21,371 nucleotides of DNA from the IMG/VR virus record IMGVR_UViG_3300023180_000475, positions 1-21,371 of that record; one strand, 5' to 3'. Both the position numbers and the translations under genes were made by a program. This stretch comes from a virus. The notes under the pieces are model-generated. The model ran no database searches. It was not told the origin of the DNA and saw nothing but the letters and a program-made list of their open reading frames with translations. Positions 2,184 to 20,261 of this stretch are shown one piece after another. Numbering within the stretch: position 1 is the first letter of the stretch; each line of letters starts with the position of its first letter.

Positions 2184-2195
2184 TTTATATACTTT
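2184..2195 (+). promoter_or_regulatory. TATA box of the ubiquitin-like gene
   Basis: TTTATATACTTT fits the archaeal TATA box. It sits just after the stop at 2172-2174 and about 45 bases before the ATG at 2233, leaving room for initiation near 2210 and a short leader carrying the AGGAGATGAT ribosome-binding site. With the terminator at 2478-2520 this defines a single-gene transcription unit. Confidence 0.6.
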
Positions 2196-2232: not shown

Positions 2233-2439
2233 ATGATTAAGTTAAGAATTATGAATGAAACTGGACACACAGAAGTTGTTCTCGCACAAAGCGAGGTTAT
2301 TGATGAAATTGACCGACACCCTACCCATTGGGTCTTTATTGACGGAGAAATGGTTAGCCGAGAATCTATCGGTGAAATTAACTGGGAAACGGTTCAATCT
2401 GTTGATTTGACTCCCGCAATCGTTGGAGGGTGCTATTGA
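2233..2439 (+). CDS. Ubiquitin-like protein with masked C-terminal GG, 68 aa
   Basis: A 68-residue protein with the look of a beta-grasp modifier: an N-terminal beta hairpin (MIKLRIMNE...TEVVLA), a helix (SEVIDEI), further strands (WVFIDGEMV) and a final strand ending DLTPAIVGGCY. The L-x-P-x-IVGG ending resembles the short prokaryotic ubiquitin-like proteins (Prok_Ub type) that work with E1 and JAB proteins. G65-G66 is followed by C67 and Y68, so a peptidase would have to expose the diglycine. The window also codes for an E1-like enzyme (7765) and a JAMM peptidase (9395). The gene has its own TATA box, an AGGAGATGAT ribosome-binding site and a terminator. The fold and family are inferred from the pattern; a structural search was not possible. 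Confidence 0.6.
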   Translation: MIKLRIMNETGHTEVVLAQSEVIDEIDRHPTHWVFIDGEMVSRESIGEINWETVQSVDLTPAIVGGCY

Positions 2440-2454
2440 AATTAGTGTAATTTC
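2438..2454. repeat. Perfect 7-bp inverted repeat at the ubiquitin-like gene stop
   Basis: GAAATTA (2438-2444) pairs with TAATTTC (2448-2454) around GTG. It overlaps the TGA stop (2437-2439) and is followed by a T-rich stretch. A 7-bp stem alone is expected by chance several times in a window of this size; its position between stop codon and terminator is the reason to list it. Confidence 0.4.
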
Positions 2455-2477
2455 TTTACTCTTCCAAACCGCATTTT

Positions 2478-2520
2478 GGGGGTAGCGTGGGGTTAATCCT
2501 CCCTGCGCTATCCCCTTTTT
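2478..2520 (+). terminator. Strong hairpin plus T-run terminator
   Basis: Bases 2478-2492 (GGGGGTAGCGTGGGG) pair with 2501-2515 (CCCTGCGCTATCCCC) over 15 positions with three G-U wobbles, around an eight-base loop (TTAATCCT). TTTTT follows at 2516-2520. This has the shape of an intrinsic terminator. Archaeal termination normally depends on the T-run, so the long GC-rich stem is notable. It ends the ubiquitin-like transcription unit. Confidence 0.75.
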
Positions 2521-2526
2521 CGGGTG

Positions 2527-2907
2527 ATGCAACCCGATTTGATTAATTTTATCAACCAAAATGGATTAAAAATAATGCTAGACCTTAAAGGATGGAAATT
2601 AGCATCCTGTATTCAGATAAACGGTTTAGCAGTAGTAAAACCTGACTTCTATCCCGCCCGTCATGTCCTCGCTATGGGGACGAGGGGCTACATTTATGCC
2701 GAAGGGCAGACTCGGATTGAATACGCAGGGCAGACATTTTCATCCACAGAAGAATTGCTTTTTTCTTGTGGAAAAGATGCTATTCTGAATTTTAAGGACT
2801 GGGTATTCCTTGAAGAAATGGAGTGGGTAATAACCGATGGAACTAATTGGTTATCTTCTTTCTCTAATCTTTCTGAATTACCTAAACGAAGTAAATATAG
2901 GTGTTAA
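2527..2907 (+). CDS. Hypothetical protein, up to 126 aa
   Basis: Not recognised. The sequence has strand-like stretches (LASCIQINGLAVVKPDF, GYIYAEGQTRIEYAGQTF) and aromatic-rich segments (DWVFLEEMEWVITDGTNWL), suggesting a compact beta-rich protein; three scattered cysteines. The start is uncertain: ATG 2527 lies within the small hairpin CGGGT/ACCCG just after the terminator, TTG 2539 has a GGTGAT upstream, and ATG 2575 has only a weak site. The reading frame ends five bases before the ATG of the ribonucleotide reductase, and its last codons carry that gene's GGTG ribosome-binding site. Confidence 0.6.
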   Translation: MQPDLINFINQNGLKIMLDLKGWKLASCIQINGLAVVKPDFYPARHVLAMGTRGYIYAEGQTRIEYAGQTFSSTEELLFSCGKDAILNFKDWVFLEEMEWVITDGTNWLSSFSNLSELPKRSKYRC

Positions 2908-2909
2908 AC

Positions 2910-4775
2910 ATGACTCAAGCCCCAAACAAAAAGATTTTATCAGACATTACTGTGCATATGAAATACGCAAAATACAACCCTGAACTTCTCCGCCGAGAGA
3001 CTTGGGATGAAATTGTTGAGCGAAACATGGAAATGCACATTAAAACTTATCCCCAATTAGAAACAGACATTAGAGAAGTTTATACTCACTTTGTCAAGAC
3101 TAAGAAAGTTTTGCCTTCTATGCGCTCAATGCAATTTGGCGGTAAGCCGATTGAAATTAGCCCTAACCGTGTTTATAACTGTGCTTATATGCCTATTGAT
3201 ACTCACATCGCTTTTAGTGAAGCCATGTTCCTATTGTTAGGAGGAACAGGTGTAGGATATTCAGTTCAACGACATCATGTTGAATTGATGACTCCTATTC
3301 AACATCCTAACCCAAATCGCCAACGACGATATTTAGTTAATGATTCAATAGAAGGTTGGGCTGATGCAGTAAAAATTCTAATGGAATGTTATACGGGTAT
3401 AAGAACATCTACTCCTACATTTGATTATTCTGATATTAGACCAAAAGGTTCTCTTTTGAAAACTTCTGGCGGAAAAGCCCCAGGCTCACAACCATTAAGA
3501 GAATGTCTTGTTAAAATTGAAGGAATGCTTCAAAACATTCCTAATGGTTCTGTATTGAAACCTATTCAAGCACATGATATTATGTGTCATATTGCTGATG
3601 CTGTTCTTAGTGGGGGTATTCGTCGTGCGGCCATGATTAGTTTATTTTCAGCAGACGACCATGAAATGATTGCTTGTAAATCTGGTAATTGGTGGGAAAA
3701 CAATCCACAAAGAGGCAGGGCAAACAATTCAGCAGTATTGCTACGCCATAGAGTAACTAAAGACTTCTTTATGGATTTGTGGAACAGAATTAAAGCATCT
3801 GGTTCTGGAGAACCGGGAATTTATTTCAATAATGACAAAGATTGGGGAACAAACCCCTGTTGTGAAATTGCTCTCCGACCATATCAGTTTTGTAACTTAA
3901 CTGAAGTAAATGCTTCAGACATTACAGACCAAGCAGATTTAGAATCAAGAGTTTCTGCCGCCGCTTTCCTTGGAACGCTTCAAGCAGGATATACTGATTT
4001 TCATTATCTCCGTGAAGTTTGGCGAAAGAATACAGAAAAAGATGCTTTGCTCGGAGTTTCTATGACTGGTATTGCTTCAAATGTTGTTGAGCATTTAGAC
4101 TTAGAAATGGCCGCCTATGAAGTTAAAAAGGAAAACGAAAAGGTTGCTAAGTTAATTGGTATTAATCCTGCTTCACGAACCACCTGCGTTAAACCTGCTG
4201 GAACGACTTCTCTTGTTCTTGGGACAAGTAGTGGGATTCATGCTTATCACGATGAGTATTATATTCGCCGTCTGCGTGTTGGTAAGAATGAAGCAATCTA
4301 TGGTTATCTCGCAACCAATCATCCCGAATTGGTTGAGGATGAGTTCTTCAATCCGCACGAACAGGCTGTTATTTCAGTTCCTCAAAAAGCACCAGAAGCA
4401 GCAATTACTCGCCATGAATCAGTATTTGATTTATTAGAAAGAGTGAAAAACTTTAGCATTCGTTGGGTTCGTGCAGGACATAATGATGGGTTGAATACTC
4501 ACAATGTTTCTGCTACTATTTCTATTAAAGATGATGAATGGGAAACAGTTGCCGATTGGATGTGGCTTAACCGACATTATTATAACGGACTGTCTGTTCT
4601 TCCATACGACGGAGGCACATATACTCAAGCACCTTTTGAAACCTGCGATAAAGAAACATATGATAAATTGACTGAAACACTACAAGATGTTGATTTGACT
4701 TTGATTCAAGAATTGCAGGATGATACAGACCTTTCAGGCGAAATTGCCTGTGCTGGCGGTGCTTGCGAAATCTAA
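2910..4775 (+). CDS. nrdJ: Adenosylcobalamin-dependent (class II) ribonucleotide reductase
   Basis: Converts ribonucleotides to deoxyribonucleotides using a thiyl radical made with adenosylcobalamin, supplying DNA precursors for replication. The 621-residue protein shows the class II barrel motifs: C91 in VYNCAYMPID, GGIRRAAMISLFSADD at about 235-250, NPCCEIALRPYQFCNL with C317/C318, E319 and C328, and a C-terminal CAGGAC (C614, C619) for re-reduction by thioredoxin or a similar donor. No ATP-cone is seen at the N-terminus. The ATG at 2910 is preferred to the in-frame GTG at 2901 because that GTG is part of the GGTG ribosome-binding site. The length is somewhat shorter than the ~740-residue monomeric Lactobacillus type. 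A B12-dependent enzyme implies cofactor from the host or its surroundings. Confidence 0.93.
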   Translation: MTQAPNKKILSDITVHMKYAKYNPELLRRETWDEIVERNMEMHIKTYPQLETDIREVYTHFVKTKKVLPSMRSMQFGGKPIEISPNRVYNCAYMPIDTHIAFSEAMFLLLGGTGVGYSVQRHHVELMTPIQHPNPNRQRRYLVNDSIEGWADAVKILMECYTGIRTSTPTFDYSDIRPKGSLLKTSGGKAPGSQPLRECLVKIEGMLQNIPNGSVLKPIQAHDIMCHIADAVLSGGIRRAAMISLFSADDHEMIACKSGNWWENNPQRGRANNSAVLLRHRVTKDFFMDLWNRIKASGSGEPGIYFNNDKDWGTNPCCEIALRPYQFCNLTEVNASDITDQADLESRVSAAAFLGTLQAGYTDFHYLREVWRKNTEKDALLGVSMTGIASNVVEHLDLEMAAYEVKKENEKVAKLIGINPASRTTCVKPAGTTSLVLGTSSGIHAYHDEYYIRRLRVGKNEAIYGYLATNHPELVEDEFFNPHEQAVISVPQKAPEAAITRHESVFDLLERVKNFSIRWVRAGHNDGLNTHNVSATISIKDDEWETVADWMWLNRHYYNGLSVLPYDGGTYTQAPFETCDKETYDKLTETLQDVDLTLIQELQDDTDLSGEIACAGGACEI

Positions 4776-4784
4776 GGTGATTAA

Positions 4785-5153
4785 ATGAAACTCTTCAAAT
4801 CGTTTGAAGAGTATTTAGAAACAGTAATATTAATGATTAGAGATTTGTCAGACGACTCTCTTAAAAGAATAAACTTAGCAATAAATGTCTGTGATTCATA
4901 CATGGATGAGAATGAAAAAATGTTTAGACTAAATACTACATTAAAAGAATGTTTTTGGGAAATTGAGGAAGCCATCTTTTGTGGCTTTCACAAATACCTA
5001 ATAGAACAAAGTGCTAAGACTAAAGAGTTGGTTGATTATCATAGAGTCAATTGCGAAGGAATAGATTGTAAAATCTGTAAATCAAAAGAATTAACAATAA
5101 ACAGAATGAGGAATTTAAATGAGAGAACACGACCCAAATTATATTCTCAATAA
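4785..5153 (+). CDS. Hypothetical protein with C-terminal cysteine cluster, 122 aa
   Basis: Not recognised. The first ~75 residues are predicted helical (FEEYLETVILMIRDLSDDSL and so on); near residues 90-98 is CEGIDCKICKS, a cysteine triplet that with a nearby His (H86) could bind zinc. AAGGTGATTAA precedes the ATG as a clear ribosome-binding site, nine bases after the reductase stop. Codons 2-9 contain a perfect 10-bp inverted repeat (4790-4812), so initiation may be affected by a hairpin. The end of the gene overlaps the start of the next small gene at 5119 by 35 bases. Confidence 0.7.
   Translation: MKLFKSFEEYLETVILMIRDLSDDSLKRINLAINVCDSYMDENEKMFRLNTTLKECFWEIEEAIFCGFHKYLIEQSAKTKELVDYHRVNCEGIDCKICKSKELTINRMRNLNERTRPKLYSQ
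4790..4812. repeat. Perfect 10-bp inverted repeat at a gene start
   Basis: ACTCTTCAAA (4790-4799) is exactly complementary to TTTGAAGAGT (4803-4812) with the loop TCG. It begins three bases after the ATG at 4785-4787, where a stable hairpin would lie next to the initiating ribosome. Same three-base-loop design as the repeat at 1176-1200. Confidence 0.6.
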
Positions 5154-5280
5154 GAGAAACAATAAACAAATAGCCACACGATGCCGTGTGTGCGGTGGGC
5201 AACTTATGGTTGCTGATGAAATTAAAAAAGAAATTCACAATAAATGTGATAATGATGATAAAAATGTATATATGATGTGA
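5119..5280 (+). CDS. Small zinc-binding protein, 53 aa
   Basis: A 53-residue protein with CRVC at residues 22-25 followed by GGQL and a third cysteine at 43 preceded by a histidine (H40-N-K-C43). CxxC plus HxxC could make one zinc site. It is basic in its first half and ends in an Asp/Asn-rich tail. The ATG follows GAGGAATTTAA and lies within the end of the previous gene in a different frame. The next gene starts four bases after the stop. No family recognised. Confidence 0.6.
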   Translation: MREHDPNYILNKRNNKQIATRCRVCGGQLMVADEIKKEIHNKCDNDDKNVYMM

Positions 5281-5284
5281 TAAA

Positions 5285-6445
5285 ATGAAATTAAATATAT
5301 CAGTTCCCGACGATTCCAACAAATATTATAGTTGTGATATTACCTGCGAAACTTTTAGTTTTCCTGAACTCAAAACCGTTTCTTATATAAGAGCCGCAAA
5401 AGACCCTGTTCAAGCGGGCTTAGAATTATTTTGGAAAAACATTATTTCTCCAAGAAAAAAACGGACTTATCATAGTCTAAGACAGCAAATACATTTTGCT
5501 GACCAGTTTCATCATATTGTGTTCATTGAAGAATGTCCTATTGTTCTTTCAAGAGAAGGTATTCGCTACCACTTGAACGGTAAGGCTTACAGTTTAGCAA
5601 CTATTTGTTCTGCTTTGGCTAGAATTACTTTCAAGGCTTGTTTTGAAAAAGATGGTGCTAAACTTCTTTCTTCTCTTTATTCAACTCTTGATTTACCTGA
5701 AAATGTTCTATATTGTATTGAAAACCGAGCACCTTTTCATTTCTTTGTTGATTTTGAAAAACAAGATGTTCGTTTAAATGTTGTTCAAATTGATGAGAAA
5801 ATGCTGGCTATGGAAATTAGTGATGGTATTTGGGGCGAAATTACTCCTAAGCAATTAGATTCATATTGTAATTTTTATCTTCATGGAAAGAAAAGAGGCT
5901 CTTGGAAGTATCTTTCTCCTAAGAGTCTTTACACTAAATTAATTGGTCGTGAACCCAGCAGTTCTGAGTTAAAGGTTATGATTGCTTTTTTGATGCAAAA
6001 CAGAATGCAAGATATTGTTGATGCTAGAGCATTGGAATTGGTTGCAGATATGCTGGTTCAACACAAAGGTCGTCTTTCTGCTGAGTATGATGATGATGTT
6101 CTTACCACTATTTATATTCGTGGTAAAGACTATGATTGGATGCTAACCAACAACCGATATAAGTCAGGCATTCAAATGGTTTCAACTTATGTTTGGCAAC
6201 CAATTTTTGAAGAATTTAAAGATGAAGAAAGCGGTATAGTTAAAAAAGTTCTTTCTCCTCCAAGTTGGAGAGGCCCAATTTGTATTGATAATATGGCCGA
6301 AGGTTCTCCTTTGGGCGACCAATTCGCAACAAGGGCATTGGCTTTATTAAACGACTTCCACACAATTAAAATAGTGAATACAATTAGGCGGTATCTTACT
6401 GCTGAACCCAATGAATATAGAGTTGATAATGATGAATTGCGATGA
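5285..6445 (+). CDS. Uncharacterised protein, 386 aa (speculative E2-like candidate)
   Basis: No family is recognised with confidence. Residues about 75-100 and 150-190 hold strand-rich segments (HHIVFIEECPIVL, FHFFVDFEKQDVRLNVVQID), followed by helices around 225-260. Residues 325-335 read PPSWRGPICID. The order long helix (245-262), strands (272-302), PP, then G-x-I-C-[IL]-D with C333 and further helices recalls the core of ubiquitin-conjugating (E2) enzymes, but the HPN motif is absent and the match is by eye only. The gene lies between the ubiquitin-like gene and the E1/JAMM genes. It could equally be a replication or virion protein. GTGATAAA precedes the ATG; its 3' end overlaps the start of the TFB gene. 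Confidence 0.7.
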   Translation: MKLNISVPDDSNKYYSCDITCETFSFPELKTVSYIRAAKDPVQAGLELFWKNIISPRKKRTYHSLRQQIHFADQFHHIVFIEECPIVLSREGIRYHLNGKAYSLATICSALARITFKACFEKDGAKLLSSLYSTLDLPENVLYCIENRAPFHFFVDFEKQDVRLNVVQIDEKMLAMEISDGIWGEITPKQLDSYCNFYLHGKKRGSWKYLSPKSLYTKLIGREPSSSELKVMIAFLMQNRMQDIVDARALELVADMLVQHKGRLSAEYDDDVLTTIYIRGKDYDWMLTNNRYKSGIQMVSTYVWQPIFEEFKDEESGIVKKVLSPPSWRGPICIDNMAEGSPLGDQFATRALALLNDFHTIKIVNTIRRYLTAEPNEYRVDNDELR

Positions 6446-7289
6446 ATGTGGTAGCAACGATAATTACTTTGATGAGATTCAAGGTGAAAGAATCTGTAAT
6501 GAATGTGGCCTTGTTCTTGTTCAAGAAATGTTTGAAGAAACTGTCCATATCTTAGATACTGGCGGTAATCTGCAACATTCAGCAGACAAGGGGAAATTAG
6601 GCTCAGTTATTACTGGAAAAGGTTCTTATAAGTTTAATAAGTTTGGTAAAAATAGTGTGATTCCTAAATCCATTCAAAATGGACTTGTTCATTGTAACAT
6701 GGTATTAGCAAATGTAGCACCTAATCTTAACTTAAATGAAAGAGTTGAAAAACTTTACATAGACTTAAACAACAAAGGCATATTTGGCCGAAGTCAATAC
6801 GAAGCAAGAGCAACGGCAGTTGTTTTTTATGCGTTAAGGGAAAATGGAACACCCTACCCATTTAAAGAAGTAATGGGTGAGTTTGAACCTAATTTAAAAG
6901 TAGTAAAGCGTTTGGTTAGAAAAATTAACCAAACCTATCGTAATAGCGCAAACTACATGCCTATCAATCCTCAGTATTTACTTGAACAAACTCTCAATAA
7001 AATTACTGATGATTTAGTATTCAAGCGTCAAGCAATTAAAGTGCTTGAATTTTTTGAATCAAAGGTTGAACAGAATACATTTAACAGAGGCCGTTCTTAT
7101 TATGCTTCTATTATTTGGATTACTGCAAAAATGACTGTGAATACTCAAATTACACAAGTATTGATTACAAAGAAAACTGGGTTTTCTAGATTTAATATTC
7201 GCAGACAAACCAAAGAGATTCTCAGTATGATTGGATTAGAATTAGCCAATCAAGTTAAAGGAAAACAATTAAGTGAACTAGGTGAATAA
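6429..7289 (+). CDS. tfb: Archaeal transcription initiation factor TFB (TFIIB-like)
   Basis: TFB bridges TBP bound to the TATA box and RNA polymerase. The 286-residue protein has an N-terminal zinc ribbon (C4, C7, C23, C26: CDEC...CNECGLVL), a linker corresponding to the B-finger/reader, and two cyclin-like repeats of about 90 residues each; GRSQYEARATAVVFYALRENG matches the first-repeat signature. The length fits the family (~300). The start is taken as ATG 6429 (or 6432) directly before the zinc ribbon; ATG 6411 would add six residues with no better ribosome-binding site. It overlaps the previous gene by 17 bases. A viral TFB could redirect host polymerase to the TATA boxes at 952 and 2184. 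Confidence 0.92.
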   Translation: MMNCDECGSNDNYFDEIQGERICNECGLVLVQEMFEETVHILDTGGNLQHSADKGKLGSVITGKGSYKFNKFGKNSVIPKSIQNGLVHCNMVLANVAPNLNLNERVEKLYIDLNNKGIFGRSQYEARATAVVFYALRENGTPYPFKEVMGEFEPNLKVVKRLVRKINQTYRNSANYMPINPQYLLEQTLNKITDDLVFKRQAIKVLEFFESKVEQNTFNRGRSYYASIIWITAKMTVNTQITQVLITKKTGFSRFNIRRQTKEILSMIGLELANQVKGKQLSELGE

Positions 7290-7290
7290 A

Positions 7291-7614
7291 ATGTTTGAAA
7301 GGGAATGGAATAGAATAGCAAAGAAAGTATATACAAATGCAGTTAATCATGGCTTTTGGAAAGAAACTCCTAATGATGGCGAGCGCATGGCTTTAATTCA
7401 TGCTGAAATTAGTGAAGCACTTGAAGCCCTGCGAGAAGGTAATCCTTCTTCATCAAAGATTATTGAATATAGTAATCTTGAAGAAGAATTAGCCGATGCA
7501 GTAATTCGTATTATGGATTATGCTTTTGGAAAAGATTTAGATATAGCGGGTGCGATTCTCGCTAAGATTGAATACAATCAAAGCCGTGAATATATGCATG
7601 GTAAATCGTTTTAA
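7291..7614 (+). CDS. MazG-like nucleotide pyrophosphohydrolase
   Basis: All-alpha NTP pyrophosphohydrolases of this family hydrolyse NTP or dNTP to the monophosphate and PPi. The 107-residue protein shows the metal-binding pattern ExxE (E39-I-S-E42) and ExxD (E66-L-A-D69) on paired helices, as in single-domain MazG-like phage proteins. The ATG at 7291 is chosen over GTG 7282 because the latter lies within the GGTGAATAA ribosome-binding site. Viral copies are thought to adjust nucleotide pools or alarmone levels; together with the class II reductase it points to control of nucleotide supply. Confidence 0.85.
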   Translation: MFEREWNRIAKKVYTNAVNHGFWKETPNDGERMALIHAEISEALEALREGNPSSSKIIEYSNLEEELADAVIRIMDYAFGKDLDIAGAILAKIEYNQSREYMHGKSF

Positions 7615-7624
7615 GGTGAATAAG

Positions 7625-7762
7625 ATGTGTGAACACGATTGGAAACAGACAGACAGTTATGCTGATACCTTTTGGGAAGGATATGGCGTTGATGCTGTAA
7701 ATTTTGAAGAATTAATAATTGAATACACTTGCACAAAATGTGGAGAAACTAAGGAGGAATAA
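7625..7762 (+). CDS. Small zinc-ribbon protein, 45 aa
   Basis: The protein begins MCEHDW and ends with CTKCGETKEE, giving a CxH...CxxC zinc-site pattern (C2, H4, C38, C41). The ATG at 7625 follows AAGGTGAATAAG. It lies between the MazG-like and E1-like genes, two bases before the latter, and its KEE tail is coded by the GGAGGA that serves as the E1 gene's ribosome-binding site. No specific family is recognised. Confidence 0.65.
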   Translation: MCEHDWKQTDSYADTFWEGYGVDAVNFEELIIEYTCTKCGETKEE

Positions 7763-7764
7763 AT

Positions 7765-8322
7765 ATGAGAAAAGTATTAGTAATTGGAGCAGGCGGAATT
7801 GGAAGTTTTCTAATTCCTACTTTAGATAAAGTCGGACTTTACCGCATTCATGTGGCTGACCCCGATAGCGTAGAAACAAAGAACCTACCTTATCAAAACT
7901 TTAAGAAAGGTCATGTAGGGCAAAATAAGGCTCAAGTAATGATGGATTCTTATGAATCTGTCGCTACTTATAGCAAATATCCTGTTTTGACTGAAAAACA
8001 AATGTCGGGCTATGACCTTGTGATTTGTTGCGTTGATAACTTGGGCGTAAGGCGAACCTTATACAACACAAGCCTTAAATGGCTTGACTTACGAGCGCAG
8101 GGCAGAAATGCCGCCCTTGTGTCGCATAAGGCCGACCCGAAAATGTATGATATGCTCTTAGCAGGTGAAGAAGGTTCATTCAGTTGTCAAGGGGATTCAT
8201 GGGATGGAACAAATAGTAATGTTCATTTTATGCAGGTCGCAATCGCAGGATTAGGCGCACAATGGATTCAAAGATACTTCAATCAAGAAGAAGTAAGAGA
8301 TTATATGGTGGTGAATGTATGA
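7765..8322 (+). CDS. Minimal E1/ThiF-like ubiquitin-activating enzyme, 185 aa
   Basis: Enzymes of this fold adenylate the C-terminal glycine of a ubiquitin-like protein with ATP. Visible motifs: the Rossmann loop GAGGIGS (8-14), DPDSVETKNL (32-41) corresponding to the D-x-D...NL...Q nucleotide-binding segment (the usual Arg is Y43, Gln is Q44), K55 in VGQNKAQV, and D91 in CCVDNLGVRR. C141 in SFSCQGDSW is a candidate thioester cysteine. At 185 residues it is shorter than MoeB/ThiF (~250) and lacks the CxxC zinc pairs. It overlaps the Myb-like gene by ATGA (8319-8322), and a JAMM peptidase follows, which argues for protein modification rather than thiamine or molybdopterin synthesis. Confidence 0.88.
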   Translation: MRKVLVIGAGGIGSFLIPTLDKVGLYRIHVADPDSVETKNLPYQNFKKGHVGQNKAQVMMDSYESVATYSKYPVLTEKQMSGYDLVICCVDNLGVRRTLYNTSLKWLDLRAQGRNAALVSHKADPKMYDMLLAGEEGSFSCQGDSWDGTNSNVHFMQVAIAGLGAQWIQRYFNQEEVRDYMVVNV

Positions 8323-9392
8323 GAAAAAGAAAGATATATACTGATGAAGAGATTGCTCACATGGTTGTAGGCAGAACTCTCAAGAAAACTTGGGAAACTA
8401 TTGCTGATGAAATAGAAGTAAAGTTCGGCTATCGTCGCTCCCCATCAAATCTTTCAATCAAATATAACTCTTTGATTGGATTAGATTTCAGCAATTATTA
8501 TACTGATAAACAAACACAGTTTGTTTATGCCGCTTGGCTAAATAATTTTCCTATGAAGAAAATTATTGCTGGCTTTGAGGAACAATTTCAGCAAAAAATT
8601 AACAAAGATAATGTTGATTTTATCGTGAAACAAATGAATCACGAACAAAAGGTTAAATCAGAATTAACCGAAACAAAAAACAAAATAAAACAAAATATGG
8701 AGATGAAAAAGATGAAGAAAAATGCATGGACAAAAGAAGAAGATGAGCAATTGCTTGCTTGTGGTTCTTGGAAGAAGGCTATGGAATTGGATAATGGTCG
8801 GTCAAGGTCGGCTAAAAACCAGCGATGGTCTTTTCTTCAAAAACAACAAACAAAAAATGGCGTAAAGCGTGGGCGGCTCTCACAGGTTGAATTAGAAATG
8901 ATTCGTAATTGTGAAACCGTTGAAGAAGCAATTGCTCTTAACTTGCGAAAACCAGAAACAATTACTAAGCATTTCTTGTTGCTTAAAAGTGATTCACATT
9001 CTCATAAGGAATGGAAGAAGAAAGAAGCGGTTCTTGCCGTTGAGCCTAAGCAAAAGGTTCATGGAAACAAAGGTAGAAAATATAGCCCTCGCTGGACAAA
9101 AGAAGAGGACTATGACCTCATCTTGAACTTTTACGAACTTTCAATTGACGAAGCCCGAAACCGATTTAATCGGCCATACGGGGCTATCGCAACCCGCTTA
9201 GAAAAGTTGGTTGATAGCACAAAGCCTGAGCATATCTCTATGCTTATGGAGGCTTCTAAGGAAATCAAGGCTCGCAAACAATCGCAAGCCCCGAAGCCAA
9301 AAAAGAGCCGCCGTATGCGTCGTAAGGAGCGAAAACAGGCCAAGAAAACGGCTAAGTTAGAAGCCAAATTGAACCGCCTCCGAGGTGAATAA
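8319..9392 (+). CDS. Myb/SANT-like DNA-binding protein, 357 aa
   Basis: Two segments match the Myb/SANT helix-turn-helix start: AWTKEEDEQLL at about 136 and RWTKEEDYDLIL at about 258, each followed by two more helices (the second ending in PYGAIATRLEKL, the recognition-helix position). A third, weaker repeat may lie at residues 5-50 (KIYTDEEIAHMVV). The C-terminus (from about 320) is very rich in Lys and Arg and should bind nucleic acid. The start at 8319 overlaps the E1 stop as ATGA with GGTGGTGA upstream. Its place between E1 and JAMM genes is unusual; it may be a transcription factor, a genome-binding protein or a target or specificity factor of the modification system. Confidence 0.75.
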   Translation: MRKRKIYTDEEIAHMVVGRTLKKTWETIADEIEVKFGYRRSPSNLSIKYNSLIGLDFSNYYTDKQTQFVYAAWLNNFPMKKIIAGFEEQFQQKINKDNVDFIVKQMNHEQKVKSELTETKNKIKQNMEMKKMKKNAWTKEEDEQLLACGSWKKAMELDNGRSRSAKNQRWSFLQKQQTKNGVKRGRLSQVELEMIRNCETVEEAIALNLRKPETITKHFLLLKSDSHSHKEWKKKEAVLAVEPKQKVHGNKGRKYSPRWTKEEDYDLILNFYELSIDEARNRFNRPYGAIATRLEKLVDSTKPEHISMLMEASKEIKARKQSQAPKPKKSRRMRRKERKQAKKTAKLEAKLNRLRGE

Positions 9393-9394
9393 AC

Positions 9395-9985
9395 ATGGGA
9401 AAAATTAAAGATAAATACTGGAAAGAAATTGAAAACGAAGATGATTCAGGCTACGATGATTGGGTTGCTGAAAATGCCCTCATTGATGAAGCACGACTTA
9501 CTGCTCAACAAATCATTGAAAACCACTTTGAAGAATTGCTTCAAGAACAATTAACTTCTTGTGCTGGCCCAAAAGAAAAACTTCTTGATGTTGCTATGCA
9601 CAACCATAGTTTTCACGACACTATTTGGGAAGCATCAACGGTTCTTTTGCCCAATCTTGAAGTTCAAGTAGTTATTGATGGTAAAAACAATTGTTTCGTA
9701 TCAACAGGAACAGCAGGATATGTTGATTTCTTTCAACCTCCTGTTGGAATGAGTTTGCCTATTCGTTGTTGGATTCATACTCATCCCTTTGGGGCAGCAT
9801 ACTTTAGTGGAACTGATATTCGGACAGTTTCTATTTGGGAACTAAATATGGAATGTGCATATGTTCTTGGTGGAGAAGGCCACTATGGTTTTTGGAATCA
9901 AAAAGAACCACAACAACTTGAAATCTATCGCAACTTTGAATCAGAACAAATTCAAACTTGGAATAAAAAGGAGGAAGAAGAATGA
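9395..9985 (+). CDS. JAMM/JAB-domain metallopeptidase, 196 aa
   Basis: JAMM peptidases are zinc enzymes that cut after the C-terminal glycine of ubiquitin-like proteins. The signature H-x-H-P-x6-S-x2-D is complete: H128, H130, S138 and D141 (IHTHPFGAAYFSGTDIRT). The catalytic glutamate upstream cannot be placed with certainty; E79 or E89 are candidates. An N-terminal extension of about 60 residues is acidic and helical. GAGGTGAATAA gives the ribosome-binding site, and ATGA couples it to the next gene. Likely roles are removal of CY from the ubiquitin-like precursor (2233) and deconjugation. The tail EEEE is produced by the overlapping ribosome-binding site. Confidence 0.85.
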   Translation: MGKIKDKYWKEIENEDDSGYDDWVAENALIDEARLTAQQIIENHFEELLQEQLTSCAGPKEKLLDVAMHNHSFHDTIWEASTVLLPNLEVQVVIDGKNNCFVSTGTAGYVDFFQPPVGMSLPIRCWIHTHPFGAAYFSGTDIRTVSIWELNMECAYVLGGEGHYGFWNQKEPQQLEIYRNFESEQIQTWNKKEEEE

Positions 9986-10269: not shown

Positions 10270-10484
10270 AGGCTTTGGGTAATTATGCAGTAATTAAACT
10301 AGAAAACTCTGTTTCTGCGTCAGGTATTCAGGTTAAAATTGATAGCACAGGTATTGTGCATTCATGTCCTTCTATGCCTGAAGTAGAGGGTAAATTGGTT
10401 CTATTTGATGATAGACACCGTTTTGTTACCCATGATGATATGATTATTGTTTCCGTTGAACATTTGTTGGGTGTGATTGAATGA
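10266..10484 (+). CDS. groES: GroES-like co-chaperonin, 72 aa
   Basis: GroES caps the chaperonin ring. The 72-residue protein starts MKALGNYAVIKLE, like the first strand of GroES, has SASGIQV where the mobile loop precedes the conserved G-I-V, and finishes with GKLVLFDDRHRF...DMIIVSVEHLLGVIE, matching the family's closing strands (...VxIxxxxDILAIVE). It is shorter than the ~95 residues of bacterial GroES, with a reduced loop region. GGAGGAAGAAGA precedes the ATG, and it overlaps the GroEL-like gene by ATGA (10481-10484), the classic pair order. Confidence 0.8.
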   Translation: MKALGNYAVIKLENSVSASGIQVKIDSTGIVHSCPSMPEVEGKLVLFDDRHRFVTHDDMIIVSVEHLLGVIE

Positions 10485-12004
10485 TTTTGAATGGAGAAGA
10501 AGTAAAACAAAAGTTGCTACAAGGTATTAACTTGGTTGCTGATACTGTAAAACCTACTCTTGGCCCTCAAGCCAAAACTGTTATTTTGCAGGGTAATCCA
10601 CCAGTCGTCATTAATGACGGAGTAACTATTACAAAGTATGTTTCCCATGATGACCCTTATGTTCAAATGGGTGTCCAATTAGTTCAAAATCTAGCAAGTA
10701 AAGCACAAGAAGGTTCAGGTGATGGAACGACTACTGCTTGTATTCTTGCACAGGCTTTTTGTAACGAATTGATGAAAAATGAAGAACAATTGACTACTCA
10801 CGACTTTAATCTTCTAATGGAATCTCTTCGTGAACAAACTATTAATTTCTTAAATAGCATCTCTATTGAAGTTAATGACAACGATATTATGAATGTTGCT
10901 ACTATTGCGGCAAATAACGACTCGGCATTGGGTGAATTGATTCAAGAAGCATTTAATACGGTTGGTCGTGATGGAGTTATTACTGTTGAGGAATCTAACA
11001 ATTACCAAACTCAACTAATTCTTCGTGAAGGTATGGAGATTCAAGAAGGCTATCTTAGCCATCTTATGTGTAATACAGAAAGTGGAAAAGTAGAATTTGA
11101 TAATCCCGTTGTTTTCATGTCAAATATGAGCCTTCGTCATTTCAAGGACATTATGCCTTTGCTTGAGTATTCAGCAAGTCAAAGCCGACCACTTTTAATT
11201 ATGTGTAAAGGAATGGATGGTTCGGCACTTAACAATTTGATTATGAATCTAATCAATAAAACTGTTGAATGTGCAGTAGTTATGTCTCCTAACTTCGGAG
11301 ATGCTCAAATTGATGAGTTGTCGGATATTCAGTCTTTGATAGGAGGTAAAGTCTTTGTTGAAGAGAGTAAAGACGACTCTAAACTTTTTACTGAAACTGA
11401 TTTGGGAACTTGTTCTAAGGTTATCATTACTAAGGAAACTACGACTTTTATCGGTGGAGAAGGTAATACAGAAGAACGCATTAAATCTCTAAAACAACAG
11501 GCTCAAGAATTAAAGGGACATGATTTGGCTCGGATTAAAGCGAGAGTCTCTCGTCTAAAGGGAGGTATTGCTACCATTAAGGTTGGTGCTTCATCTTCAA
11601 TTGAAATGCGTGAAAAGAAAGAAAGACTTGATGACGCACTTAACGCAACAAAAGCCGCTTTAGAAGAAGGTATTGTTGTTGGTGGTGGTGTTCCGTTTAT
11701 TCGTCTTGCTTATGCAATTGAAGCACCAGAATGGTTTAGAAAGTCGGTTGTTAAGCCCTATCGTGTTTTGATGGACAATGCAAACTATACCGAGCAAACA
11801 AGAGTCGTTGAGTTTGAAATTGAAAAGACAATTGATGGGACAAACCCTAATTGGGGTTTCAATGCAGTTTCATGTCAGCATGAAGATTTGTTTAATGCAG
11901 GGGTCTTTGACCCTGTGAAGGTTTCTAAGAATAGTTTCTTAGCGGCATTATCAATTGCTCAGTTGTTTTATTCAACAGATGTAGCAGTATTAGTGGAGGA
12001 ATAA
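10481..12004 (+). CDS. groEL: Group I chaperonin (GroEL/Cpn60-like), 507 aa
   Basis: ATP-driven folding chamber. Group I features: VKPTLGPQAKTVI (23-35), INDGVTITK, EGSGDGTTTACILAQAF (ATP-binding loop near residue 80), and a C-terminal equatorial block RVSRLKGGIATIKVGA, MREKKERLDDALNATKAA and EEGIVVGGGV that holds the conserved catalytic Asp. These match bacterial GroEL, not the archaeal thermosome. The length is about 40 residues below the usual ~545 and the C-terminal GGM tail is missing, with LVEE instead. The adjacent GroES-like gene is co-translated. It may fold virion proteins; the divergence of the apical domain (190-370) suggests specialised clients. Confidence 0.93.
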   Translation: MILNGEEVKQKLLQGINLVADTVKPTLGPQAKTVILQGNPPVVINDGVTITKYVSHDDPYVQMGVQLVQNLASKAQEGSGDGTTTACILAQAFCNELMKNEEQLTTHDFNLLMESLREQTINFLNSISIEVNDNDIMNVATIAANNDSALGELIQEAFNTVGRDGVITVEESNNYQTQLILREGMEIQEGYLSHLMCNTESGKVEFDNPVVFMSNMSLRHFKDIMPLLEYSASQSRPLLIMCKGMDGSALNNLIMNLINKTVECAVVMSPNFGDAQIDELSDIQSLIGGKVFVEESKDDSKLFTETDLGTCSKVIITKETTTFIGGEGNTEERIKSLKQQAQELKGHDLARIKARVSRLKGGIATIKVGASSSIEMREKKERLDDALNATKAALEEGIVVGGGVPFIRLAYAIEAPEWFRKSVVKPYRVLMDNANYTEQTRVVEFEIEKTIDGTNPNWGFNAVSCQHEDLFNAGVFDPVKVSKNSFLAALSIAQLFYSTDVAVLVEE

Positions 12005-18959: not shown

Positions 18960-20177
18960 ATGGAAGAAAACATGAAAGCAGAAATTGAAAAGAGCGCACA
19001 ATACATTGGTATGAGCGTTGAAGAAGCGACGAACAAGTTTGAAGAGATTTGTTCCGAAAACAACATTGAAACCACTAACCCCATTTCAAGGGGTCTTTGG
19101 CGCAACTATGTTGCGAATGTGCGAAGAACGCAAGATAGCGGAGATTCATCCAAAGGTAATGATTCTTACTACAAAGCAGCATTTGGTTTCTTTGTTTCCC
19201 TTGATGCCCCTAGAGACATGATGGCTTGGAATCGCATGAAGGCAAAAGAAGAGTTTATGCGTGATGCTGATAATGCCCTTGAACAAGGTATTGTTGCTAT
19301 TGCATCACAAAATGCACTTGGAAAGTGGGTTGTTTCCCGCTATCACAACGGAGAATACGGTGAAAAAACTGTTTCAACGCTTCCTTCTGGTGCAGAAGAA
19401 GCAGAAGATGGTCGTTTCTTTATTCCTTTGGATAATACCGCAACCTACATGAATGGTGGTAAAAACAACAATTACGGTAAGCCTCTTCCCGCAGAACAAA
19501 TGCGAAGAAGCGGTGTTTTCTTCGGCTCTATCGGTCAAGGAGAAATGAAGCCTTACTACTTCTCTTACAAAAATGATGCAGGGGTTCAATTTGCACCAAA
19601 CACTTTTGAATGGGTGCATTTCCTTTGTATCGCTAACGACAACGGGACTGATATTTATGGGGCTAAAGATTTGACTTTGAACAGTCTTTCTCTTAACTCA
19701 GAAATGAATCCCGAAAACGAACTTTACCGTGATATGTCGTCTTTTGACTTTGAGGATTGTTTGCGTGAGAACTTCTCTTCTCATCTTGTTCCTCTTGTTG
19801 ATATGGACAAAGCGCACATTGAGCGTCAAGCCCTTCCTTCTAAAGAGCGTTATGTGATTACTGACGGAACTGTTTGTAATATGAACATGACTCCTACAAA
19901 GAACGGAAACAGAATCATTAACCTAACTGACTTAAATGCAGAAATGGACTATGATTCTGAATCAACGGGTATTACTACCTGTTGGATTCCTGAACATTTG
20001 ACTCTTGATTTCGGTATTGGTTCTTCCGTTATCGTTATTGGGCGAACTAGTCAAAGAACGACTGATGAAGGAGTTGAGCCAGTTACTATCAATGTTGCTG
20101 GTCTTTACTGCGTTATTCGTCATGGTTCGGCAGTTGAGGTTTCAGTTCCAGTTGAAGAGGATTTTGACTGGTTTTGA
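18960..20177 (+). CDS. OB-fold single-stranded DNA-binding protein (RPA/SSB-like), 405 aa
   Basis: Residues about 290-395 look like an OB fold: ERYVITDGTVCNMN, RIINLTDLNAE, TTCWIPEHLTLDFGIGSSVIVIGRTS, VTINVAGLYCVI. The N-terminal two thirds are unrecognised alpha/beta sequence rich in Asn and Gly. The protein ends VEEDFDWF, an acidic, aromatic tip like the SSB tail that recruits replication proteins. Its place between RFC-S and a RadA/Sak4-like ATPase supports a role in replication. The start at 18960 follows GGAAGTGAAA. Codon use (CGT, CTT) resembles well-expressed genes here. The family is inferred; a structural protein is the main alternative. Confidence 0.6.
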   Translation: MEENMKAEIEKSAQYIGMSVEEATNKFEEICSENNIETTNPISRGLWRNYVANVRRTQDSGDSSKGNDSYYKAAFGFFVSLDAPRDMMAWNRMKAKEEFMRDADNALEQGIVAIASQNALGKWVVSRYHNGEYGEKTVSTLPSGAEEAEDGRFFIPLDNTATYMNGGKNNNYGKPLPAEQMRRSGVFFGSIGQGEMKPYYFSYKNDAGVQFAPNTFEWVHFLCIANDNGTDIYGAKDLTLNSLSLNSEMNPENELYRDMSSFDFEDCLRENFSSHLVPLVDMDKAHIERQALPSKERYVITDGTVCNMNMTPTKNGNRIINLTDLNAEMDYDSESTGITTCWIPEHLTLDFGIGSSVIVIGRTSQRTTDEGVEPVTINVAGLYCVIRHGSAVEVSVPVEEDFDWF

Positions 20178-20186
20178 TTAAAACCA
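20169..20186 (+). terminator. Hairpin over the stop codon of the SSB-like gene
   Basis: TGGTTTT (20169-20175) pairs perfectly with AAAACCA (20180-20186) around GATT, spanning the TGA stop (20175-20177). CCTTTTG follows. It may act as a first, weak terminator or an mRNA 3' end structure. A 7-bp stem alone could be chance. Confidence 0.4.
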
Positions 20187-20220
20187 CCTTTTGTGTAGTC
20201 GTTGGCGTTAATGACGGCCA

Positions 20221-20246
20221 TAGAGGTGCGAAGCCTCTAGTTTTTT
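20221..20246 (+). terminator. Hairpin plus T6 terminator
   Basis: TAGAGG (20221-20226) pairs with CCTCTA (20234-20239), extended by a T-G wobble, around the loop GCGAA. G and TTTTTT (20241-20246) follow. It closes the gene group that ends with the SSB-like gene and lies just before the ribosome-binding site (AAGGTGAAAA) of the next gene. Confidence 0.65.
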
Positions 20247-20261
20247 AAAAAAGGTGAAAAT

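Follow-up and report, generated by a model that had tools for sequence, protein, structure and literature searches.

A predicted virus-encoded ubiquitin-like modifier, E1, and JAMM cassette in magrovirus-like genomes

The DNA analysed here is a complete 21,371-base IMG/VR record (IMGVR_UViG_3300023180_000475), referred to as the window, which is a piece of a larger virus and carries nearly all of its genes on the plus strand. Three plus-strand genes form a candidate ubiquitin-like cassette: a 68-residue modifier (2233..2439), a minimal E1/ThiF-like enzyme of 185 residues (7765..8322), and a JAMM/MPN+ peptidase of 196 residues (9395..9985). A sequence-only reading had proposed that this virus-like genome encodes a ubiquitin-like modifier with its E1 and JAMM. 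The proposal is supported by the predicted folds, the catalytic residues, and the co-occurrence of the three genes; conjugation itself is inferred. Relatives were collected by IMG/VR scans, one anchored on each cassette gene, which gave 91, 68, and 316 related stretches. The cassette loci overlap between scans, and duplicates were removed for all counts given as distinct. None of the three open reading frames is due to chance, because homologues are numerous for all of them and purifying selection acts on each (median ratio of nonsynonymous to synonymous substitution rates, dN/dS, of 0.13 for the modifier, 0.15 for the E1, and 0.19 for the JAMM). The Gly-Gly of the modifier, the nucleotide loop of the E1, and the motif of the JAMM do not vary.

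The coordinates, the length, and the IVGGCY ending first read for the modifier are all correct; Gly65-Gly66 is followed by a Cys-Tyr tail (tail codons 2431-2436). Sequence searches of PDB, Pfam, PHROGs, NCBIfam, and PADLOC found nothing relevant, and no curated ThiS/MoaD or ubiquitin model was matched in Pfam, NCBIfam, or PHROGs. A comparison of folds was therefore needed, and current annotation misses a modifier that has no recognised sequence relatives. The AlphaFold2 model, predicted from the single sequence, has a predicted local distance difference test score (pLDDT) of 88.1 and the elements E2-8, E11-17, H19-28, E32-36, E39-41, and E56-61; residues 66-68 are of low confidence and flexible. 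In the PDB fold search, ubiquitin, NEDD8, ISG15, SUMO, other ubiquitin-like proteins, and MoaD came first, with modest E-values (5e-3 and above) and template modelling scores of 0.4-0.6. Such E-values are usual for a domain this small. A viral fold library returned giant-virus ubiquitin-like proteins and phage proteins, including phage tail proteins. The fold predicted for the 68-residue protein is a ubiquitin-like beta-grasp with the beta-beta-alpha-beta-beta order.

The Gly-Gly is invariant in all 69 distinct modifiers. The tail past it is absent in 13, one residue long in 8, and two residues long in 48 of them, and none of the tail residues is conserved. A divergent group (48% identity) keeps the Gly-Gly with the tails QN, CY, and NL, and its members also have the E1 and JAMM; every relative that keeps both enzymes retains the Gly-Gly. 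An invariant Gly-Gly with a variable tail is what a ubiquitin-like C-terminus that undergoes processing looks like. The modifiers are also nearly free of lysine. Among 67 distinct mature modifiers, 35 contain none and 29 contain one, almost always Lys3, and the lysine share is 0.8%; for the E1, the JAMM, and the long frames of these viruses it is 5-8%. The near-absence of lysines should limit self-modification and chain growth, and favour single tags over chains.

The modifier family (2251-2391) also weakly resembles T4 PinA, a Lon protease inhibitor, below all cut-offs and possibly by chance. The Pfam Inhibitor_I24 (PinA) model weakly matched 8/15 modifier members (best E 6e-4, below cut-off), and a direct hhalign comparison of the family with T4 PinA gave 35% probability over 45 columns, a weak resemblance. 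The modifier could instead work without conjugation, in a structural or inhibitory role like that of lambda TAPI (tail assembly) or T4 PinA (protease inhibitor), as the weak PinA matches and the phage tail proteins among the viral fold matches would allow. This explanation leaves the invariant Gly-Gly with its variable tail and the strict co-occurrence with the E1 and JAMM unaccounted for, and the set sits among replication and transcription genes rather than tail genes. We consider it the least probable of the explanations weighed here.

The open reading frame of the E1 was confirmed, and it matched the Pfam ThiF profile above the cut-off (64.6 bits against 28.1, E 1e-17). It contains a GAGGIGS nucleotide loop. 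The GxGGIG motif, Lys55, Asp91-Asn92, and Cys141 are invariant in 90 distinct relatives. Cys141 is the sole invariant cysteine; it lies near the expected loop, within an invariant SxSCQ, in an ambiguous part of the alignment. When the E1 family profile was searched against PDB, the matches were UBA5, Cap2, MccB, NEDD8 E1, MoeB, and ThiF. The E1 scored 31.1 bits with the UbaA equivalog model, far under its cut-off of 450. MccB is among the closest solved relatives, and the set might modify a small molecule, a peptide, or a nucleic acid, for example by a reaction like that of MccB, in which the modifier would be the carrier and the JAMM the release enzyme. However, the genes beside the set in the window do not consistently include another that looks biosynthetic, and MccB-type systems use a short peptide instead of a beta-grasp modifier. 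Such a role seems very unlikely.

The complete HxHPx6SxxD signature noticed in the peptidase is present (HTHPFGAAYFSGTD). The residues Glu89, His128, His130, Ser138, and Asp141 are invariant in 90/90 distinct sequences, and the motif is intact in 221/221 loci. The Pfam Prok-JAB model matched 21/25 members of the family and fell below its cut-off for the protein of the window. The AlphaFold model (pLDDT 87.9) has mostly JAB/MPN proteins as PDB fold matches, led by AfJAMM, CSN5, AMSH, Rpn11, and PfJAMM1; the PfJAMM1-SAMP2 complex and BubCD are also included. The WD-40 matches of the single sequence were a repeat or composition artefact, and the family profile leaves one weak match.

The JAMM had been read as a maturase that cuts Cys-Tyr after the Gly-Gly. 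The invariant Gly-Gly and variable tail agree with this, but removal of the tail is not its only job. On the E1 tree, the tail-less state of the modifier must have changed four times, by gain or by loss, and well-supported branches force at least three of these changes. In all 30 tail-less loci the JAMM is retained, its motif is complete, and it evolves under purifying selection (median dN/dS 0.175), whereas a pure maturase is expected to decay once the tail is gone. A purely maturing JAMM is ruled out, and the JAMM therefore does more than maturation. Its retention without a tail points to reversible conjugation. Removal of attached modifier would be the simplest reason for keeping it; a CysO/Mec+-like release would also fit.

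In the IMG/VR relatives, the three genes were always found together and in the same order; their co-occurrence in related contigs had been suggested as a check. A family-profile scan of the IMG/VR loci found all three in 177 loci (81 distinct E1s), the order modifier, E1, JAMM was constant in all 177, and no IMG/VR locus with sufficient flank lacked any of them. To avoid circularity, GroEL was used as an independent anchor, with at least 9 kb upstream (n = 40); anchoring on the TFB gave too few loci for a denominator. The E1 and JAMM were present in 39/40 GroEL-anchored loci and the modifier in 38/40. One miss is an unrelated virus, whose GroEL is 31% identical; the other is a locus whose beginning falls right after the modifier, and the modifier can be seen on the same contig in locus L011. 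The gap between E1 and JAMM is below 60 nt, with the genes adjacent or overlapping, in 15/99 distinct loci. A scan of cellular genomes gave only three contigs (L227, L228, and L229), all from one metagenome-assembled genome labelled Altibacter sp. EAC109, which hold the cassette or its modifier and are probably binned-in viral contigs. No close relative of the modifier, E1, or JAMM was found in the phage collection. Its E1 matches (H1-H51) are distant ThiF proteins, mostly from crAss-like Bacteroides phages, annotated as hypothetical or as 'thiamine biosynthesis protein'. The contig IMGVR_UViG_3300021958_000021 (184,733 bp) carries the cassette twice, in two differing copies (L003 and L057) separated by about 93 kb, which suggests two joined virus genomes.

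The modifier gene has its own transcription signals. A TATA box (TTTATATA) lies at 2184..2191 on the plus strand, 42-49 nt upstream of the ATG. Of 77 distinct relatives, 45 have a strict TTTAWA in the 90 nt that precede the modifier, against a background of 7% per 90 nt, and nearly all of these boxes are at -40 to -55. Downstream, a terminator-like hairpin (GGGGGTAGCG / CGCTATCCCC) followed by TTTTT is found at 2478..2520 (plus strand); such a hairpin with a T-run recurs in 42/77 relatives, with a background of 12%. The separate promoter and terminator ascribed to the modifier are supported by these features. The E1 and JAMM had been placed in one operon with TFB and chaperonins, and the genes from TFB to GroEL do form a tightly packed, partly overlapping string that includes both. 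It is a reasonable inference from this layout that much more modifier than enzyme could be made. Directly ahead of the modifier promoter, there is a 37-residue open frame (2061-2174; MIKGLIKGIAYTAGALALGGIGVAIVAHIAERDYPLE) that resembles a membrane peptide, and several relatives also have its DYPLE end ahead of their modifier gene.

Within the gene string, the upstream TFB-like transcription factor (6411..7289, plus strand) matches phrog_20431 and, with a score below cut-off, the Pfam TFIIB zinc ribbon. The downstream GroEL-type chaperonin (10481..12004, plus strand) matches Pfam Cpn60_TCP1 and phrog_5725. Between the E1 and the JAMM lies a Myb-like DNA-binding protein (8319..9392, plus strand; Pfam Myb below cut-off), whose start overlaps the E1 stop. 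It is rich in lysine and arginine and has possible repeats. It is probably not part of the mechanism, because the E1 and JAMM adjoin in other lineages.

The window encodes, besides the TFB-like factor and GroEL, an RFC small subunit, an ATP-dependent DNA ligase, a class II ribonucleotide reductase, and a Sak4-like protein, together with tRNA-Arg(TCT) at 827-902 and tRNA-Lys(TTT) at 20156-20247. Long relatives of the virus are 86-97 kb. Magroviruses have been described for marine Poseidoniales (PMC10768690), and a group I chaperonin (PMC5332604) and tRNA-Arg-TCT (PMC5628999) have been reported in them. The archaeal-type replication and transcription genes, the chaperonin, the tRNA-Arg(TCT), and the size of the relatives, within or near about 90-100 kb, are all magrovirus features. 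The virus fits the magroviruses, with Poseidoniales as a candidate host only, and the viruses carrying the cassette appear to infect archaea.

Taken together, these viruses probably encode a reversible ubiquitin-like modification system that acts by protein conjugation. The separately expressed modifier would be trimmed after the Gly-Gly by the viral JAMM where a tail of one or two residues exists. The minimal E1 would then adenylate the C-terminal glycine, and may hold the modifier as a thioester on Cys141. With no viral E2 or E3 found, attachment to lysines on proteins of the host or the virus could be direct, as for archaeal SAMP/UbaA, or could be aided by the host. The JAMM would also take the modifier off its targets. 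Candidate targets may include virion proteins, transcription factors of the host, and proteins that are sent to its proteasome.

The evidence for this scheme is computational and consists of the folds, the residues, the co-occurrence, the Gly-Gly, the JAMM of tail-less lineages, the lysines, and the promoter. Several points weigh against it. The fold searches gave only modest E-values, the best being 5e-3 and 1e-3. No UQ_con match to an E2 was found in 26 long contigs, a search in which the control was likewise unmatched and divergent E2s could be missed. The E1 has Tyr43 at the conserved Arg of the NxxRQ stretch in 90/90 distinct sequences, where it aligns with the Arg of UBA2 and UBA5, and the protein begins directly at the first strand; adenylation might therefore be weak or different. 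In UBA5, the counterpart of Cys141 in the alignment is a zinc-ligand region and not clearly the catalytic cysteine. JAMM and E1 occur in sulfur-carrier pathways too.

The modifier might instead be a sulfur carrier. Once adenylated by the E1, it would be converted to a thiocarboxylate that passes sulfur to, for example, a tRNA or a metabolite, with the JAMM trimming the tail or releasing the product, as in CysO/Mec+ or QbsE/QbsD, and the host supplying the sulfur donor and the acceptor enzymes. The E1 is a member of the ThiF/MoeB superfamily, the modifier has MoaD among its fold matches, and both tRNAs of the window, tRNA-Lys UUU and tRNA-Arg UCU, have U34. A Mec+-like role would also account for a JAMM kept without a tail. 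However, PP-loop thiolase, rhodanese, MoaE, and pyridoxal phosphate-dependent cysteine synthase were not found in the 26 long contigs, where the controls were matched, and neither the separate, strong-looking promoter nor the depletion of lysine is expected for a catalytic carrier. We favour protein conjugation as the probable function, and consider the sulfur carrier unlikely.

Almost all sampled genomes of this widespread lineage keep the set, which is therefore likely core to infection rather than accessory. The modifier family is new here, as is a minimal, virus-owned, and near-universal cassette. The literature searched contains no description of such a set in archaeal viruses and none joining magroviruses with ubiquitin; some key magrovirus papers lay outside the search, so that priority is uncertain. 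These viruses probably tag proteins in infected cells, as human cells do with ubiquitin, and which proteins marine archaeal viruses tag becomes a question to ask. A more specific picture seems to us evenly balanced between right and wrong: a lysine-depleted modifier with a promoter of its own, an E2-independent 185-residue E1, and a JAMM serving for both maturation and removal of the modifier would make up the first such conjugation system known from archaeal viruses, near-universal in a large group of abundant ocean viruses, which would tag host proteins and possibly steer them to the proteasome. With about 450 residues in all, the cassette offers a tractable minimal ubiquitin-like cycle for reconstitution.

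Sets of ubiquitin-like protein, E1, and JAB are known in bacteria. Bacterial E1/Ubl/JAB operons and the anti-phage systems Bil, Bub, and type II CBASS (cyclic oligonucleotide-based antiphage signalling system; Cap2/Cap3) resemble the viral set in combining a ubiquitin-like protein, an E1, and a JAB peptidase; the viral E1 matches Cap2, and the viral JAMM fold matches BubCD. Bacteria turn ubiquitin-like conjugation on phages, whereas here the set is carried by the virus and not used against it. Its E1 and JAMM are separate single-domain proteins, and no E2 was found with it (UQ_con search of 26 long contigs, control unmatched). The QbsE/QbsD/QbsC and CysO/Mec+ systems are sulfur carriers with a JAMM and an E1, in which Gly-Gly is followed by a short tail removed by the JAMM; they lie in biosynthetic clusters, unlike the viral set, for which a sulfur acceptor enzyme was not found in the 26 long contigs. 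Archaeal sampylation depends on UbaA, a noncanonical E1, and JAMM proteins reverse it (PMC4895103); a 2010 survey did not detect E2 and E3 in archaea (PMC2948915). The SAMP/UbaA/JAMM system of Haloferax volcanii shares with the viral set a beta-grasp modifier ending in Gly-Gly, a noncanonical E1, and a removing JAMM (PMC4895103). The fold matches of the viral JAMM include PfJAMM1, also in the SAMP2 complex. The viral set differs in being virus-encoded and always clustered, while Jab genes of cellular archaea are rarely near Ubl genes (PMC2948915). The viral E1 scores 31 bits against the UbaA cut-off of 450, and the viral modifier is nearly lysine-free and has a removable tail. Lambdoid phages encode pairs of Ub-like and JAB domains, TAPI and TAPK (Ub-like and JAB-NlpC) (PMC1779556), and so share with the cassette the pairing, in a virus, of a Ub-like domain and a JAB peptidase. 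Their domains are fused, without an E1, and lie in the tail-assembly cluster, whereas the cassette described here has a free modifier and an E1, and lies among replication and transcription genes.

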